Below, piece after piece: positions 41,916-51,540 of a stretch of DNA of 64,000 nucleotides (position 1 is the first letter of the stretch; each line of letters opens with the position of its first letter). The stretch lies in assembly GCA_021805775.1 (NCBI GenBank), contig JAJZED010000002.1:86390-150389 (forward strand), written 5' to 3'. The notes beneath the pieces are model-generated. The model worked only from the letters and a program-made list of their open reading frames with translations, was not told the DNA's origin and searched no databases. Both the position numbers and the translations under genes were made by a program. Source of the DNA: a bacterium (lineage in GTDB: Bacteria > Vulcanimicrobiota > Vulcanimicrobiia > Vulcanimicrobiales > Vulcanimicrobiaceae).

Positions 41916-44486
41916 CTAGAGGGCGTTGGCGAGAGCCCAACCCTTCGGGGCACCGATACCGGTGACCAGATCGTATCCGGTGCCTGCATTGTAGGCGCCG
42001 TTCGTTCCCGTCGTCACATCGGTGAAGTCGGTATATCCGGTGCTGGTAAAGATGCTGTAGAGCGTCGGGTTGACGAAGCCCAGCGGGCTGCCGTGCAACT
42101 GATCCGCTTCAGCCATCAGGGCAACGAACTCCGGCGACGACCACGAGGTGCCGTCAACCTGCATTTGGCTGCCGTTGGCATAGACCATCACGCCCACACC
42201 CGGGAGCGCGACATCGGGATCGTTCCGACCGGTGCTGACCATATTCGCGACACCCTGCTGGTAGCTCGGGAGTGCGAAGATCGTCGAAACGCCGCCGCCG
42301 GAGGAGAACCCGTTGCTCGAGTCGCTTCCCGAGGTGATGCTGGCGAGTGCGCCGGTCGAAGTGTCGGTGAAGTTCACCGCGCCAACCGCCGTGAAGTACG
42401 GATCGGTCGCCGGCGAGCTAACGCCCGGTGGGTTATTTCCCGTTCCGCATTCATCGCTGCCCGAGTCACCGGAGGAGGCGACGAAGGTCATTCCCTTCGC
42501 GGCTGCCTGTTCGGCGATCGTATTGGTCGTATTGGTGAACGCCGTATCGGAGGTTTCGCAACCACCAAATGAGGAGTTGACGACGCTGGCTTTGCCGTCG
42601 GAGACGGTTTGGTTGTAGCCGGCTTCGATACTCTGCGAACTGAGATCTGGGAAGTTGTAGACGATGATGTTCGCACCCGGCGCGAGGCCGGAGATCGTTT
42701 CGACATCGAGCGCGGTCTCGGTGTAATCCGAGCTCGATGCGTTGCCGCCGCCGCTGACGGCTTCGTTGGTGATCGTGCCGGTCTGCGTGACGCCTGCCGC
42801 GCTAAGGTAGCCGGCGACATCGCTGGTGTTGATCGGCGTATCGATTTCGACTGCGACCGTTACGCCTGCGCCGTTGCAGCCATGCTGCACCGGGTAATCG
42901 AAGGCTTCGGCGACGCCCGTTGCGAGCCAGCCGTTGGAGCCGCTGACCGGACCGCTATCGGGGCTGCCGCTGCAGGTGCCGCCGGAGACCGGCGTCGGCG
43001 TCGGAGCCGGGGTCGGCGAGTTCGTCGGCACCGGAGTCGGTGAGTTCGTCGGCACCGGGGTCGGCGATGCGGTCGGTACCGGGGTCGGTGACGCGGTCGG
43101 TACCGGGGTCGGTGACGCGGTCGGCACCGGGGTCGGAACCGGGGTCGGAACCGGGGTCGGAACCGGGGTCGGAACCGGGGTCGGAACCGGGGTCGGAACC
43201 GGGGTCGGAACCGGGGTCGGTGAAGGCGCCGGAGTCGGCGTGCTTCCGTTGGTCAGCGATGCATCGTCGAGGTAGACGTAGTTGTAATCGCTGAACGATC
43301 CACTGCCGTAGATACCGACAAAAATGATGACCTGTTGTCCGGCATACGCACCGATGTTATAGCTGCGTTGGACGTAGCCGTTGGTGTTGCCGTTCTCGGT
43401 GTAGAGGTTGGTCAGGTAGTTGCCGTTGGCATCGAAGAGATCGGCTTCCTGATCGGCGTTGTAGGTGCTCGTTTCACTCGTACCTTCGTCGACGTAGAAG
43501 CTCAGTTGTCCGTTGGTCGGAACGGTTACCTGCTGGCAGACGCCGTCGAGACCGTACTCTTCGCCGAGATTGCTGGCAAGATTTCCGGTAAAGGCGTCAT
43601 ATCGGCCGCTATGCGGATTCGACGAGTCGATCGTTGCATAGCCGTTTCCGCAGGCAAACCACGGCGAGAACGCTCCGCTCTCGAAACCGGGGTTGCCGAT
43701 GACGTTGGAAGTTGCAAACGGCGTCGCGTATCTCGCAAGCATCGCTCCGCGCGCTTTCATCTGCGGCGAGAGCGCGATCTTGCGCGTTGCGCGCTGTGCG
43801 GGAACGTGCGGCACGCTCGGGAGTGTCGTCGAAGCAATCAACGACGAGAGCGAGAGCGAGCTGCGGACGTGGGTGCCGGTGTGGGCAACCACAATATTGC
43901 TCGCCGTTACGGCGCGTACGAGCGGTGCGATCGCCGAGGGAACGGTCGCCGGCTTCACGTTGACGTAACGCGCACCGAATTTACCCTGGTTCACCATATG
44001 AATCTGGGTGTTGAAATAGCTCTCGACCTTCGCGGCGGGGGCGGAGGCTTCGATGATGGTGCGGTTGGAATACTCTTTGGCGATCGTAAAGCCCGCACGC
44101 TGCAATGCAAAGACGACGCTCTGCTCCTGCTGCGTGGTCGGCGCGTAATACGAATTAAATTCATCGGTCGTGAGATAGTGATGGTACATCGGCGAAGTAG
44201 GATCGGCTTGCTGGGCGACGAGCTGATCGAGTTGCGCCTGATGGTTGTAGTCGAGCGTCAACGTGACGTTGACGGGCGTCGTCTGCGGAGCGGCACCCAT
44301 ATCGGTGTAGGCGAGGGAGCCGCCGGTCTTCGGAGCGTTGCTAATCGGGCCTTGGGCTGGCGACGAAGAGCCTACCGTGGGCGTGCCGGCCGGTAAAATT
44401 CCTCCACCGGAATTGCCGCCGCCGCACGCCGAGAGCACCATGCCTGCAATGAGACACGATGCTACGAGTCGGAGGGATGTTTGCAT
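41916..44486 (-). CDS. Sedolisin-family (S53) serine-carboxyl peptidase lipoprotein with inserted binding-like domain
   Basis: Secreted protease of 856 residues. The signal ends in lipobox VLSAC. Residues about 60-205 are the S53 activation (pro) domain ([12 protein letters not shown]). Residues about 265-410 form a beta-sandwich like a carbohydrate-binding module ([20 protein letters not shown]). A Pro-Thr-Val linker of about 65 residues follows. The catalytic domain has [16 protein letters not shown] (Glu and Asp), the nucleophile in GTSWSSPE (Ser 781), and the calcium site near [16 protein letters not shown] lies upstream of the ATG. Confidence 0.9.
43020..43215. repeat. In-frame 12-bp tandem repeats encoding the sedolisin linker
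   Basis: Plus-strand unit GGGGTCGGAACC, nearly identical over 43,128-43,215, preceded by 24-bp variants with ACGCGGTC or GAGTTCGTC inserts. Units are multiples of three and encode PTPV and PTASPTPV repeats, so copy number can change without shifting the frame. Confidence 0.9.
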
Positions 44487-45786: not shown

Positions 45787-45964
45787 CGGCGGTTCTCCTT
45801 CACTCTCTTAAGCAATCTTGAGGTCCATAATCGTTGTTAACGATCGATCGAAAAACTCCCGCAAAAACAAGCGTTTTTTCACGATATTAACCAGGACTCG
45901 CACGGGCGAAAGCCGCAGAATATGCAACAGCGTGTCTGCCGTTTTCGTTCGCGGAGGTATCCCG

Positions 45965-47671
45965 TTGCGCCGTCTCATCGCTTTCATCATCGGTTGTTCC
46001 ATTTTTTGTTCGATCTCGCCCGCAGGCGCATCGGAGAGCGGCGCGTCACCACAACGTTCATCGCTCGATTCGCTGCTTCGTTCGCGGATCAAACACGTTT
46101 TTGTCATCTACCAAGAAAATCGTTCTTTCGATTCTTATTTCGGAACCTTCCCGGGTGCCGATAACCTCGCCTCCCCTTCGGCTCGGAGCCACGGATTTCG
46201 CCAATACGATCCGATCGGGCGCCAATGGGTAACGCCGTTTCGTATCACCGCCCCCGATACCGCCGATGCCGATCATTCACGTCCGGCGCTTCTTACGAAG
46301 GCCGACGGCGGCCGAATGGATCTCTACGTTGAAACCGAGGAATTCGGTCTTCTCGCGCGCGGCTATCAACGCAGCGATGCCGAGCGACTCGGCCTGCTGA
46401 CGATGGCGCACGAAGATTGCGACACCATTCCATACTTGTGGTATTACGCACATAACTTCGCACTCTACGATCGCTTCTTTCAAGGGATGTGGGGACCGTC
46501 GACGCCGGGAAACATCGATCTCATCGCCGCACAGACCGGAGAGACACAGTGGGCGCGCGACGCCGCCGAGCAAGTTGCGCCCGATTCCAAAGGCCCCGGA
46601 GAGCCGATCGTCGACGATGCAGAGCCGCCGTTCGGCCCCTATCCGGGGAGCCCGCCCGATCCCCTCAAAGCCCAATACGATCAACATTATGCGACGATTT
46701 TTCTGACGATGGCGCAGCGCCATGCGATCGAAGCGAAGCGCGACAATCACGGCATCCGCAAAGATATCGCGGCGATCGCTCGCAGCGGGCGCCCCGCGAT
46801 TCCGTGGGGTTGGTACCAGGAAGGTTACGCCGCCGCCGCACACCCGAATGCAACGAATCTGGTGCACGGCTATATCCCGCACCACAACGCCTTGCAATAT
46901 TTCGGATACCTGCGCAAGAATCCGTATTTTTGGGGCGGGGTCCACGATCTCACCGCGCTCTTCCCCGCCATTTCGCAAGGGCGACTGGGCAACCGAAGCG
47001 TGATATTTATTAAAGGCGGTAAGAAGAACCCGTTCGGCCTCAAACCCGCAAATAAAAACCCTCGCGTGCAATCGCGCTTCCGCGGCGACGACGACCATCC
47101 GGGCTACTCCGACTCGCAGATATCCGAGGCGATGGTCGCCAAAGTCGTCGATACGATCGCTCGCAGCCGCTATTGGAAGAGCTCCGCAATTTTTATCTTT
47201 TGGGATGACTCCGAAGGTTTCTACGATCACGTCTCGCCCCCGCAATTCGAGCGATGCTTCGACGGACATGCGTGCGGCGACGGCCCTCGCGTTCCGGCGA
47301 TTCTGATCTCGCCATACGCGCGCGACCATGCGGTGGTACACGAGCTCTCCGATCATGCTTCCTTCGTGAAGTTTCTCGGGACGCTCTTCAAATTACCGGC
47401 ACTGGCCTCACTACCCGACGAAAAAATCTATATGCCGCTGGGGCCACGCGACACGAATCCGGCGCTCAGTAATCTCGTCGGAGCCTTCGATCCGCAACGT
47501 CTCGCCGGAACGAAAGCGCCGCTACCGGCGAGCCGAGCCGAGATTCCGACTCGCGTTGTCGATAGCATTCCATCGACGTGGAACTGCCGGAGGATCGGCA
47601 TCACGCCGGTTCATATCCCCGGGGAGAACCATCCTCCCAAAGGCTTCGCACCGCTCCTCGAAAATCATTAG
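45965..47671 (+). CDS. Secreted phosphoesterase (phospholipase C / acid phosphatase family)
   Basis: Enzyme of 568 residues cleaving phosphate esters outside the cell. The signal peptide is LRRLIAFIIGCSIFCSISP. HVFVIYQENRSFDSYFGTFP carries the metal-binding Glu-Asn of the family. Later motifs include FFQGMWGPSTPGNIDLI, FIFWDDSEGFYDHVSPP and RVPAILISPYARDHAVVH, which hold further metal ligands. The TTG at 45965 is fixed by GGAGG at 45953-45957, 7 nt upstream; the frame is open another 49 codons but these lack signal character. Confidence 0.9.
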   Translation: MRRLIAFIIGCSIFCSISPAGASESGASPQRSSLDSLLRSRIKHVFVIYQENRSFDSYFGTFPGADNLASPSARSHGFRQYDPIGRQWVTPFRITAPDTADADHSRPALLTKADGGRMDLYVETEEFGLLARGYQRSDAERLGLLTMAHEDCDTIPYLWYYAHNFALYDRFFQGMWGPSTPGNIDLIAAQTGETQWARDAAEQVAPDSKGPGEPIVDDAEPPFGPYPGSPPDPLKAQYDQHYATIFLTMAQRHAIEAKRDNHGIRKDIAAIARSGRPAIPWGWYQEGYAAAAHPNATNLVHGYIPHHNALQYFGYLRKNPYFWGGVHDLTALFPAISQGRLGNRSVIFIKGGKKNPFGLKPANKNPRVQSRFRGDDDHPGYSDSQISEAMVAKVVDTIARSRYWKSSAIFIFWDDSEGFYDHVSPPQFERCFDGHACGDGPRVPAILISPYARDHAVVHELSDHASFVKFLGTLFKLPALASLPDEKIYMPLGPRDTNPALSNLVGAFDPQRLAGTKAPLPASRAEIPTRVVDSIPSTWNCRRIGITPVHIPGENHPPKGFAPLLENH

Positions 47672-47691
47672 CGAAGTACGTCGCGTTTCGA

Positions 47692-47982
47692 TCACTCGCG
47701 AAACCACTTTTTCGCGCTGGGCCGACGGTGGGGACAGCCCGGCCAACAGCACGGTTGTCGTTTGCCGTCTTTCAAATCTGCAATGAGACGCTCGATATGC
47801 TCGATCCGCGTCTTCGGGCGCTTAACGATCGTCGTCCAACAGATCCATTCGTTGCGCTGAATCGGCGTGAGGGCGTTCCATAGCGCGAGGGTCTTCTTCG
47901 CCGACGTTATCGCCTCGACCATATCGGTCGGAACCTCATGGAGCACTCCCGGTAAAATCTCCGACTTCACTTGCGTGGCCAC
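47692..47982 (-). CDS. YdeI/OmpD-associated family protein
   Basis: Protein of 96 residues. The sequence LTPIQRNEWICWTTIVKRP, followed by arginine-rich IEHIERLIADLKDGKR and PCCWPGCPHR, matches the C-terminal YdeI-type (bacteriocin-protection, DUF1905-adjacent) family as I know it. Function is poorly defined. It is convergent with the phosphoesterase gene, 20 nt apart, and faces the repeat region upstream. Confidence 0.75.
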   Translation of the reverse strand: MATQVKSEILPGVLHEVPTDMVEAITSAKKTLALWNALTPIQRNEWICWTTIVKRPKTRIEHIERLIADLKDGKRQPCCWPGCPHRRPSAKKWFRE

Positions 47983-48108
47983 TACGCTCCTCCCCTCGCA
48001 CTCCGTGCGCTCGTCCTCTCAAGGCTAGCCGGATCGCCTCTTCTCGTTTCCCGGCCCTTCGTCACGTACCGCTTCCCGACGCCAACCCGTCGCCTATTTT
48101 TTTATCCT

Positions 48109-48350
48109 CCCCGTCGTCTCTTTATATCTCTCGTCGTCTTTATCTCTCCCCGTCGTCTTTTTATATCCCCCGTCGTCTTTTTATATCCCCCGTCGTTTTT
48201 ATAAATCTCGTCGTCTTTTTATATCCCCCGTCGTCTTTTTATCTGCCTCGTCGTCTTTTTATCTGCCTCGTCGTCTTTTTATATCCCCCGTCGTCTTTTT
48301 TTATCCCCCGCCGTCTTTTTTTATCCCCCGCCGTCATCTCTAACTCTCCC
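48109..48350. repeat. Tandem repeat array, about 12 units of about 20 bp
   Basis: Inside the 504-nt stretch without a gene (47,983-48,486). The plus-strand unit is close to CGTCGTCTTTTTATATCCCC; units vary between TATATCCCC and TATCTGCCT endings and shorten or lengthen by one or two bases. The units are contiguous with no spacers. Unit length is not a multiple of three and no open frame spans the array, so it is not coding. Confidence 0.85.
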
Positions 48351-48382
48351 CACATCCCCGTCGCCCTTGCCCGCACAAAAAT

Positions 48383-48488
48383 AATTCCGGAGCTGAATTC
48401 GTCGAGATCGAGGCGCCGGAACGCGACGCGTACGTGAAGTACGCGAGCGTTTCGGCAACGACGAGATCGGCGGATTCAGCCCGGAATT
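48383..48488. repeat. 106-nt imperfect inverted repeat abutting pstA stop
   Basis: Outer arms AATTCCGG and CCGGAATT, then GCTGAAT/ATTCAGC, mid-arm CCGGAACGC/GCGTTTCGG, and apex GCGTAC-GTGAA-GTACGC. An internal unpaired region lies around GAGATCG on each side. The arm nearest pstA contains its stop codon. No T-tract follows on the minus strand, so this is a long RNA hairpin or a DNA element rather than a plain terminator. Confidence 0.8.
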
Positions 48489-49344
48489 AAGCGTGGGAGC
48501 GGGTGCGGGAGGCCCAGTACTCCACCGCCGCGCGAGCGACGAAGTTGGTAACGAAGATACCGATCATCAGCAGGAACGCCGCGGCGTACGCGAGTTGATG
48601 CGACTCCTTGAACGGCTCGTTGATGAACGTCCAGACGACGTAGGTGAGATAGCCGACCGGCGAATGTGTCGGAGCGAGCGTCGGCATATAGTTCGACCAA
48701 CCGGCGGTGTAAATGAGCGGAGCAGTCTCGCCCAGAGCGATGCCGACGCCGATGAGCAGGCCGGTGAGCGTGCCCGGAAGCGCCCACGGAAATGCGACAC
48801 GCAAGAACGTCGTCAGCGGGCGCGCGCCCAACGCGACCGAAGCCTCGACGAGATCGCGCGGGACCGCCGAAAAAGCGAGATCCGCCGCGCGATAGACGTA
48901 GGGAAGCATGATGATCGCGAGCGCGAGCGAACCGGCGACGAGCGAAAAACCCCATCCCGCCGTCTCGACTAGCGCCACGTAGAGAAAATATCCGACGACG
49001 ATCGACGGAACGCCGAAGAGCACGTCGATCGAAAGGCGAACGACGATGCGTAAACGATCCGGAGCGAATTGCGTTACCCAAATCGCCGCACCGATACCGA
49101 CGGGCACGACGAGGACGACAGCAAGCGTTACCAACAGCATCGTACCGGCGATTGCGTTAGCCAGGCCGCCGGCGATGCCTTGCGTTACCGTGACGAAGAT
49201 ATCCGGGCGAATCGCCGCGATTCCGCGCACGAACACAAACCCGAAGAGCGAGAGCAACACCAGGAGTGCACCGACCAACGAAGCGATGCAGAGCACCCAC
49301 CAGAAGCGTGAGATTGCGACGTTGCGCTTTACGTGAGAGACCAT
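48487..49344 (-). CDS. pstA: Phosphate ABC transporter permease PstA
   Basis: Inner-membrane permease of 285 residues with six helices. GIGAAIWVTQFAP, the EAA-loop VEASVALGARPLTTFLRVAF, and IGVGIALGETAPLIYTAG are PstA marks. Its ATG shares a base with the pstC stop (TGATG). No pstB follows: the stop codon lies in the long inverted repeat, and beyond it is the tandem repeat array. Confidence 0.95.
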   Translation of the reverse strand: MVSHVKRNVAISRFWWVLCIASLVGALLVLLSLFGFVFVRGIAAIRPDIFVTVTQGIAGGLANAIAGTMLLVTLAVVLVVPVGIGAAIWVTQFAPDRLRIVVRLSIDVLFGVPSIVVGYFLYVALVETAGWGFSLVAGSLALAIIMLPYVYRAADLAFSAVPRDLVEASVALGARPLTTFLRVAFPWALPGTLTGLLIGVGIALGETAPLIYTAGWSNYMPTLAPTHSPVGYLTYVVWTFINEPFKESHQLAYAAAFLLMIGIFVTNFVARAAVEYWASRTRSHA

Positions 49345-50378
49345 CAGTGCGAGCGATCCTGTCCGCGAATGGCAACCCGAGCGATCGTATTAACGGCTAA
49401 CGAAATAACGAACAACACGAGTGCGAGTTCGGCGAGCGATCGCTGCGCAACTCCACTGGCATCGCTAACCGCCGACTCCAATTGCGAGACCACGACCGCA
49501 GCGATCGTATTGATCGGTGAAAAAATGTTCTGCGGGAGAATGTTGATCGCGTTTCCGGCAACCATCAGCACGGCCATCGTTTCACCGAGCGCGCGGCCGA
49601 AAGCGACGAGAATCGCCCCAACGATGCCGGTGCGTACGCTCGGCAGGACCGCATGCGTAACGGCCTGCCAGGAAGTACTACCCAGCGCCATGCTCGCTTC
49701 GTAGATACTTTTCGGCTGCGCCAGCAAAACGTCGCGCACGGTGGCAACCATGATCGGCATCACCATGATCGCGAGAACGATCGCAGCGGCAAAGAGTCCG
49801 TTTCCGCTTCCGGCATCGCCGCCGAGAAAGGGGATGAAACCAAAATGGTGCGTGACGAACGGCGCGACGTGATTCCCGACCCAAGGCACCAGCACGATCG
49901 TGCCCCACAATCCATACACCACCGACGGGATGCCGGCCATAAGTTCGATCAAGGCGTTGGTCGGTAGGCGCAGTCGCTCCGGTAAGCGATAGACGATCGT
50001 CAAGGCAACGCCAAGCGCGAGCGGCACGGCGAAAACCATCGCGAGTAGTGCCGAGAGCAGCGTTCCCACGAGGAAAACCAAGCCGCCGAACTCGGCGCCC
50101 GGCTCCGCGGCGACGCCGTTATGAATCGAGCTCCCCGTACCGTACTGGTTGCCGATATTCCAGGTGATGTCGCTGAGGATGCTTAGCCCGTTATAGCGGA
50201 TCGCCGGCCACGTGTACCACAGCAAAAACAGCAACATCAGCACGACCAAGAGCAGGCAAATACCCGCGGCAATAGACGTGAGAACGCCGGCCAGCGTTCC
50301 GCTGGCCGGCGATTGCGAGAAGGGAACCGCAGCGCGGCGCGCGCGGCTCCCCCCTACTGTCGGCGTAAGGCTCGCCAA
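49344..50378 (-). CDS. pstC: Phosphate ABC transporter permease PstC
   Basis: Partner permease of PstA, 344 residues. YNGLSILSDITWNI follows the first membrane helix; GIPSVVYGLWG, the EAA-type EASMALGSTSWQAVTHAVLP, and FGRALGETMAVLMVAGN are characteristic. It starts 1 nt after the pstS stop. The N-terminal extension of about 30 polar residues before the first helix is normal for PstC. Confidence 0.95.
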   Translation of the reverse strand: MASLTPTVGGSRARRAAVPFSQSPASGTLAGVLTSIAAGICLLLVVLMLLFLLWYTWPAIRYNGLSILSDITWNIGNQYGTGSSIHNGVAAEPGAEFGGLVFLVGTLLSALLAMVFAVPLALGVALTIVYRLPERLRLPTNALIELMAGIPSVVYGLWGTIVLVPWVGNHVAPFVTHHFGFIPFLGGDAGSGNGLFAAAIVLAIMVMPIMVATVRDVLLAQPKSIYEASMALGSTSWQAVTHAVLPSVRTGIVGAILVAFGRALGETMAVLMVAGNAINILPQNIFSPINTIAAVVVSQLESAVSDASGVAQRSLAELALVLFVISLAVNTIARVAIRGQDRSH

Positions 50379-50379
50379 C

Positions 50380-51432
50380 CTAGTGGATCTGCGCGATCTG
50401 CGTGCGGCTCAATTTTGCAATCGAACCCGGCAGCGGGAGGAAGTGGACGGCGTTGAGGAAGTGCATCTGCTGCCCGCCGTTATGGTCGAGCACCCACGAG
50501 AGGAACTTCACCAGCGCTTCGCGTGTCTGGGCGCTCTTTTGGTGCGGGTTAACGATGGCGTATTCGTAGTTGATGATCGGGTACGAGTTCGCACCCGGAG
50601 CAAAAACGAGCGAGATGCGTTCGTCGCGCGGGGTCTTCGAGTACATCGCCGCCGCAGCCGAACCGATCGTCGAAGCGGTCGGGGCAAGAAAGCGTCCGGC
50701 GCGATTCTTAAGAAGCGCGTAGCCGAGTCCGGCCTTATTCGTTTCGTTGATGAAGCTCACGCCGATATAGGCGATAGAGTACGGGGTCGCTTTGCAGGCC
50801 TGTACCATCCCCGGGTTGCCGTTCGCGCCGACCGCAGTCGGAACCGAGGGCCAGCTGATCGAGGTGCCGTAGCCGGGGCCATGGCTCCACATCGGCGTGG
50901 TGAACGAGAGATACTGCGAGAAAATGAAGGTATCGCCCGATCCATCGGTGCGGTGGACGGGAATGATCGTCCGGTGCGGGAGACGGCCGGCGTAGGGGCG
51001 ATTGAGCGCCTTGATCTGCGGGTCGTTCCAGTATTTAATCCGGCCCATGTAGATGCCGGCGAGAACCGGACCCGAGAGGTGCAAGTGCACGTTATTGAGC
51101 CCCGGAAGATTGTAATTGATCTGCTGGGCACTAATCGCAAGCGGAATATTGAGCATGCGGTGTCCGCGCATCTGCGGATCCCCCATGTAGGCATCCGATG
51201 CGCCGATCTGTGCGACGCCGGCGATCGCCTGCGAGATCCCCGTGCCGCTGCCGGTGCTCTGCGTCGTGATTTGGACGCCGTGGTTCTTCGCCTGGTACGA
51301 AGCAACCCAGATATTCATCAACGGATAGAGCAGCGACGAGCCGGTCTCGAGGATCGGCGTCGCAGCCCGCGCCGCTGCGAGCGAGCCGAGTGCGAACACG
51401 GCTGCAAGAGCGACGGCGGTTAACTTACGCAT
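50380..51432 (-). CDS. pstS: Phosphate-binding protein PstS
   Basis: Periplasmic phosphate receptor, 350 residues with a signal peptide (LTAVALAAVFALGSLAAARA). TGSSLLYPLMNIWVASY, TTQSTGSGTGISQAIAG, and VHRTDGSGDTFIFSQYL contribute the phosphate-binding serines, threonine and aspartate. The ATG at 51432 is preferred because AAGGGA lies upstream and the signal peptide starts there; the frame is open to 51498. First gene of pstS-pstC-pstA. Confidence 0.95.
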   Translation of the reverse strand: MRKLTAVALAAVFALGSLAAARAATPILETGSSLLYPLMNIWVASYQAKNHGVQITTQSTGSGTGISQAIAGVAQIGASDAYMGDPQMRGHRMLNIPLAISAQQINYNLPGLNNVHLHLSGPVLAGIYMGRIKYWNDPQIKALNRPYAGRLPHRTIIPVHRTDGSGDTFIFSQYLSFTTPMWSHGPGYGTSISWPSVPTAVGANGNPGMVQACKATPYSIAYIGVSFINETNKAGLGYALLKNRAGRFLAPTASTIGSAAAAMYSKTPRDERISLVFAPGANSYPIINYEYAIVNPHQKSAQTREALVKFLSWVLDHNGGQQMHFLNAVHFLPLPGSIAKLSRTQIAQIH

Positions 51433-51540
51433 GTAGTTCCCTTCGTTAAAAATGACAAGTGCGGTACAACGCTCGGGTCCGCCTTCGCGCACCCTCACCG
51501 AGATCGTACAACCCGCTGGTAAACACCGGCTTATGGAACT

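Follow-up and report, generated by a model that had tools for sequence, protein, structure and literature searches.

What does a tandem array of short, pyrimidine-rich units do between the pst genes and a gene of the YdeI/OmdA family, and what keeps it there? The question is raised by the window, the stretch of 64,000 nucleotides analysed here, which belongs to contig C7 (283,158 bp) of an uncultured Eremiobacterota MAG (2.59 Mb in 28 contigs).

The array and its neighbourhood

Tandem Repeats Finder (TRF) describes the array (Table 1) with a period of 20 bp, 11.5 copies (the value in the assembly), 84% matches, a score of 293 and the unit consensus CCCCGTCGTCTTTTTATATC, which places it among the strongest tandem arrays on the contig. 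The plus strand, antisense to pst, is 80% pyrimidine, and the minus strand, which is the pst-sense strand, is purine-rich with the core GACGACGGGG. The preliminary description had spoken of a pyrimidine-rich array of 20-bp units with a purine-rich minus strand, in a gene-free site between a YdeI-like gene and the pst operon. Each of these points holds: period and strand asymmetry are as described, the neighbours are identified by their Pfam domains (PF13376, PF00528 and PF12849), and no ORF of at least 60 aa spans the array on either strand. Protein coding was accordingly rejected for both strands, while a 77-aa ORF (47971-48204, plus strand) reaches into the first array units. A search of the genome for the unit, proposed earlier as a check, found the exact 11-mer AGACGACGGGG at five sites, all within the array, and a dispersed regulatory site was therefore discarded; a looser two-core pattern gives scattered pairs, as expected in GC-rich genes.

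Table 1. Features of the locus, in window coordinates
Feature	Position	Strand	Basis
Phosphoesterase-family gene, convergent with ydeI	45818..47671	+	PF04185
YdeI/OmdA-family gene, downstream of the array	47692..47982	-	PF13376; retained in relatives
Candidate Rho-utilisation region (78-nt windows with C/G of at least 2)	47927..48414	+	window composition
Tandem array, 11.5 units of about 20 bp	48109..48335	+	TRF, relatives, composition
T-rich tract directly after the hairpin, ATTTTT-like (CTTTT in relatives)	48376..48381	-	alignment
Long hairpin of 108 nt, starting with the pstA stop codon	48382..48489	-	conservation, folding, covariance search
pstA-type permease gene	48487..49344	-	PF00528
pstC-type permease gene	49344..50378	-	PF00528
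pstS-type phosphate-binding protein gene	50380..51498	-	PF12849

The pstS-pstC-pstA genes (48487-51498) have no pstB alongside; only one pstB match exceeds the curated cut-off, and it lies on a different contig (G000:C23:108096-108833). A further tandem array of the window, with a 12/24-bp unit (42996-43220), is part of a pro-kumamolisin-type gene (41916-44486, minus strand), where it encodes a PTPVPT-type linker and is an ordinary coding repeat.

Turnover and strand composition in the genus

An array occupies the interval between pstA and ydeI in eight of the ten genomes searched from the genus, including the present one (G000, G001, G002, G004, G006, G007, G008 and G009). It is divided between two contig ends in G006 and cut off by the end of the contig in G009, and in G007 pstA and the array are on two separate contigs. 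The pstA genes of related MAGs are 94-99% identical to that of the present genome. Since separately assembled MAGs of the genus contain homologous yet different arrays at the same position, an assembly artefact appears very unlikely and the array is taken to be real. The search of related genomes, also proposed in the preliminary description, thus recovered the locus, but neither the period nor the copy number is kept. The main period is 20 bp in G000, 19-22 in G001, 21-22 in G008, 21 in G002 and G006, 33 (20+13) in G004, 47 in G009 and 25 in G007. Copy number varies as well, and the arrays are not copies of each other, while in G002, G006, G009, G007 and G004 the units within each array are nearly identical. 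All eight arrays share the core GTCGTC (GACGAC on the pst-sense strand).

The two remaining genomes, G003 and G005, have instead a spacer of about 100 bp with neither array nor hairpin, and have retained ydeI despite the missing array. Because both group with the array- and hairpin-bearing G008 in the pstA tree, loss seems the simpler reading; as they have the replaced spacer in common, it may have been a single event. Downstream of 15 pst loci from more distant members of the family, no similar array is seen by eye.

What all eight genomes retain, despite differences in period and unit, is the strand composition. With contig C7, roughly 11% of the genome, as background, the C/T-rich, G-poor plus strand of the array has by far the highest purine/pyrimidine asymmetry of all 227-bp windows, the best window elsewhere reaching 67% pyrimidine. 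Its best 78-nt window has a C/G ratio of 5.5, the top value on both strands of the 283 kb, where a ratio of at least 3 is found at only four other places. In the other seven arrays the best such window reaches 4.0-6.6, values that each exceed 99.99% of background windows, whereas the maximum in the G003/G005 spacer is just 1.4-1.6. The predicted folding energy of array RNA is -0.056 (plus) and -0.055 (minus) kcal/mol per nt; random windows average -0.375 (sd 0.059). At least six C residues at a spacing of 11-13 nt occur in 178 of the 422 windows of the region, a count that stands without a background rate. The array is thus old within the genus and unusual in strand composition, and to judge from the sequences this conserved composition points to a role at the RNA level, involving Rho, rather than to DNA bending.

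A hairpin at the pstA stop codon and its dispersed relatives

The 108 nt that begin with the pstA stop codon are predicted to form one long stem with internal loops. Among the seven intact copies in the genus, 96 of the 108 positions are invariant; for comparison, pstA is invariant at 42 of 170 fourfold sites and at 625 of 852 sites overall. A coding stretch was rejected, no codon pattern being seen by eye. Together with the adjoining T-rich tract, the hairpin is possibly the intrinsic terminator of pst. In G007 the copy, distributed over two contigs (L016 from 2356; L195 1-130), is split by an IS-like insertion that has terminal inverted repeats (ATCGTGTCCC...) and what looks like a target duplication of CGATATCG.

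A covariance model built from the seven genus copies finds at least 55 matches in G020, which belongs to a different genus, and smaller numbers in other genomes. With this model the reverse strand of the present hairpin alone scores 62.7 bits, so that any long palindrome might yield a score near 60; the matches are taken as homologous because they have internal loops in common (TCGTTGC/GCGCCTCG and CTCG/TCGC). In an alignment of 66 matches, fitted to the structure and including two partial copies and one reverse-strand match, 34 of the 42 pairs have changed on both sides and 94.4% of cells pair. The covariation score is 0.468; shuffles give 0.117, and slid controls do not exceed 0.086. A second model, with 25 candidates scored per genome and copy numbers that are lower bounds, detects the family at an E of at most 1e-5 in 65 of 148 genomes related to the present one, which come from 28 of 77 genera; nearly all the genomes that bear it belong to the same family or order. 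Copies are present at loci L266-L325. Of 63 copies, 60 begin near the stop of an ORF (control rate 45%) and 49 also end close to a convergent one. In Rfam, the hairpin family has no match at the gathering score, and the weaker matches are generic hairpins. At one locus of G020 (L279, 289-543), a full hairpin is succeeded by two incomplete repeats of its inner part (401-456 and 488-543), an arrangement that resembles a tandem duplication of the inner stem.

The hairpin is thus a member of a widespread, apparently undescribed family of palindromes in Eremiobacterota. Like REP sequences (PMC3733652, PMC1525189), its copies are palindromes at scattered sites, most of them downstream of genes and many between genes that converge. 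IS elements target REPs (PMC3733652, PMC1525189), and the interrupted G007 copy offers a parallel. REPs are, however, 20-40 nt long (PMC3733652, PMC1525189), whereas the hairpin measures about 110 nt and has two conserved internal loops and strong covariation: dispersal and downstream position are found, a 20-40 bp unit is not. The family is a more novel item than the array, and a structured element that deserves separate study.

Readings of the array

It is tentatively proposed, as the most probable reading yet at somewhat less than an even chance, that the array is a minisatellite grown by slippage and kept as a Rho-utilisation (rut) region that halts antisense transcription before pst. Replication slippage would have produced the minisatellite in the spacer 3' of pst before the genus diversified, and the repeat would have been retained since its plus-strand transcript offers Rho a long, unstructured, C/U-rich and G-poor stretch for loading. 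RNA polymerase leaving the convergent phosphoesterase gene, a possible origin of plus-strand transcripts by presumed read-through, would run antisense through ydeI and produce the array RNA. Rho loaded on this RNA would travel 5' to 3' and halt the polymerase no later than the long hairpin and pstA, sparing pst transcription from the wrong strand; in the opposite direction, pst transcripts would stop at the hairpin with its T tract. Plus-strand transcription, Rho loading, termination and the benefit to pst are all putative steps.

Several observations are consistent with this proposal. Rho is encoded in the genome (TIGR00767, 623 bits, above the curated cut-off). Sites of Rho utilisation are described as rich in C, poor in G and free of structure, with C residues at regular intervals (PMC6407284); those mapped in Bacillus subtilis have the same biases and lie chiefly antisense to genes, and sequence alone does not allow them to be recognised reliably (PMC12350095). 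The plus strand of the array has an excess of C over G for at least 78 nt, regular C residues and an unstructured predicted RNA, and its position antisense to pst fits the pattern. The likeness to known rut regions (PMC6407284, PMC12350095) thus extends to composition, to a length above 78 nt and to the order of the elements, antisense to a gene and then a hairpin; unlike them, the array is a tandem repeat with turnover, and a candidate by its sequence features. No literature was found on tandem repeats of Eremiobacterota or on tandem-repeat rut sites. Against the rut proposal, G003 and G005 do without both array and hairpin, and the recurrence of the GTCGTC core exceeds the demands of composition alone. 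Moreover, a weak terminator-like site (47685-47704, plus strand) could already end the phosphoesterase transcript, and slippage by itself might amplify a biased ancestral unit again.

This last possibility is the main rival, nearly as likely as a rut region: a minisatellite without function, in which slippage adds and removes units in a spacer free of counter-selection, with core and composition common by descent and through re-amplification of a biased ancestral unit. Intergenic bacterial minisatellites, or VNTR loci, consist of short non-coding tandem units of variable copy number. The array resembles them in its short non-coding units and variable period and copy number, and differs in being kept at one locus throughout the genus, in its strong strand asymmetry and in its common core. 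Variation of period and copy number between species, near-identical units in five genomes as a sign of recent expansion, the confinement of the array to a single locus and its lack in two species all favour neutrality, which accounts for both the turnover and the two absences. It accounts less well for the persistence of skew and core in five lineages despite a difference of about 0.43 between clades at fourfold sites of pstA. A neutral simulation run at this pstA divergence, with the present unit as a guessed ancestor and a star tree, gave a mean skew of 0.31 (sd 0.12) compared with 0.56 observed (P = 0.012, if each lineage has one homogenised unit), and retained GTCGTC in all five lineages in 0 of 20,000 runs. 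Because of the assumed ancestor and the star tree, the simulation is rough and suggestive only.

It is distinctly less probable that the array acts in pst-sense RNA or as a leader element of ydeI, its purine-rich GACGACGGGG repeats binding a protein or forming R-loops with the template whenever polymerase passes the hairpin. The GACGAC core of every array, the 73-82% purine content of the pst-sense strand wherever the spacer is at least 100 nt and the location of the array upstream of ydeI in the same direction agree with such a role. However, the hairpin and T tract probably stop pst transcripts ahead of the array, a search for a promoter-like site found none, and ydeI survives without the array in G003 and G005. 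To our knowledge no protein binds these repeats.

Least probable is an element acting as DNA, either tandem protein sites of the iteron or centromere type or a bent segment. The preliminary description had suggested that T-runs every two helical turns might bend the DNA or align a protein on one face, and the direct repeats of about 20 bp with A5/T5 runs in the present genome, at one locus per genome, speak for such an element. Comparison does not bear this out: the spacing in relatives is 20, 21, 22, 25, 33 or 47 bp, so that it is not kept near whole helical turns, the A/T runs are missing from the units of G002 and G006, and two species lack the array. A phased A-tract curve or one-face array was therefore rejected, as was a replication origin or centromere, the cumulative GC-skew profile having no extremum at the array. 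CRISPR was dismissed on a single sub-threshold Rfam match (18 bits compared with 35), and triplex DNA on purine runs that, as read from the sequence, are interrupted every few bases.

If the array is indeed a rut region, it could be joined with the hairpin in a single two-way transcription boundary, in which the hairpin would stop sense transcripts and a self-renewing rut repeat would stop antisense ones. As a whole this combination is unlikely; in it, slippage itself would maintain the Rho terminator. If the rut reading is right, the array would represent a terminator defined by composition and kept alive by a tandem repeat despite sequence change, and would provide a reason why some intergenic minisatellites persist.
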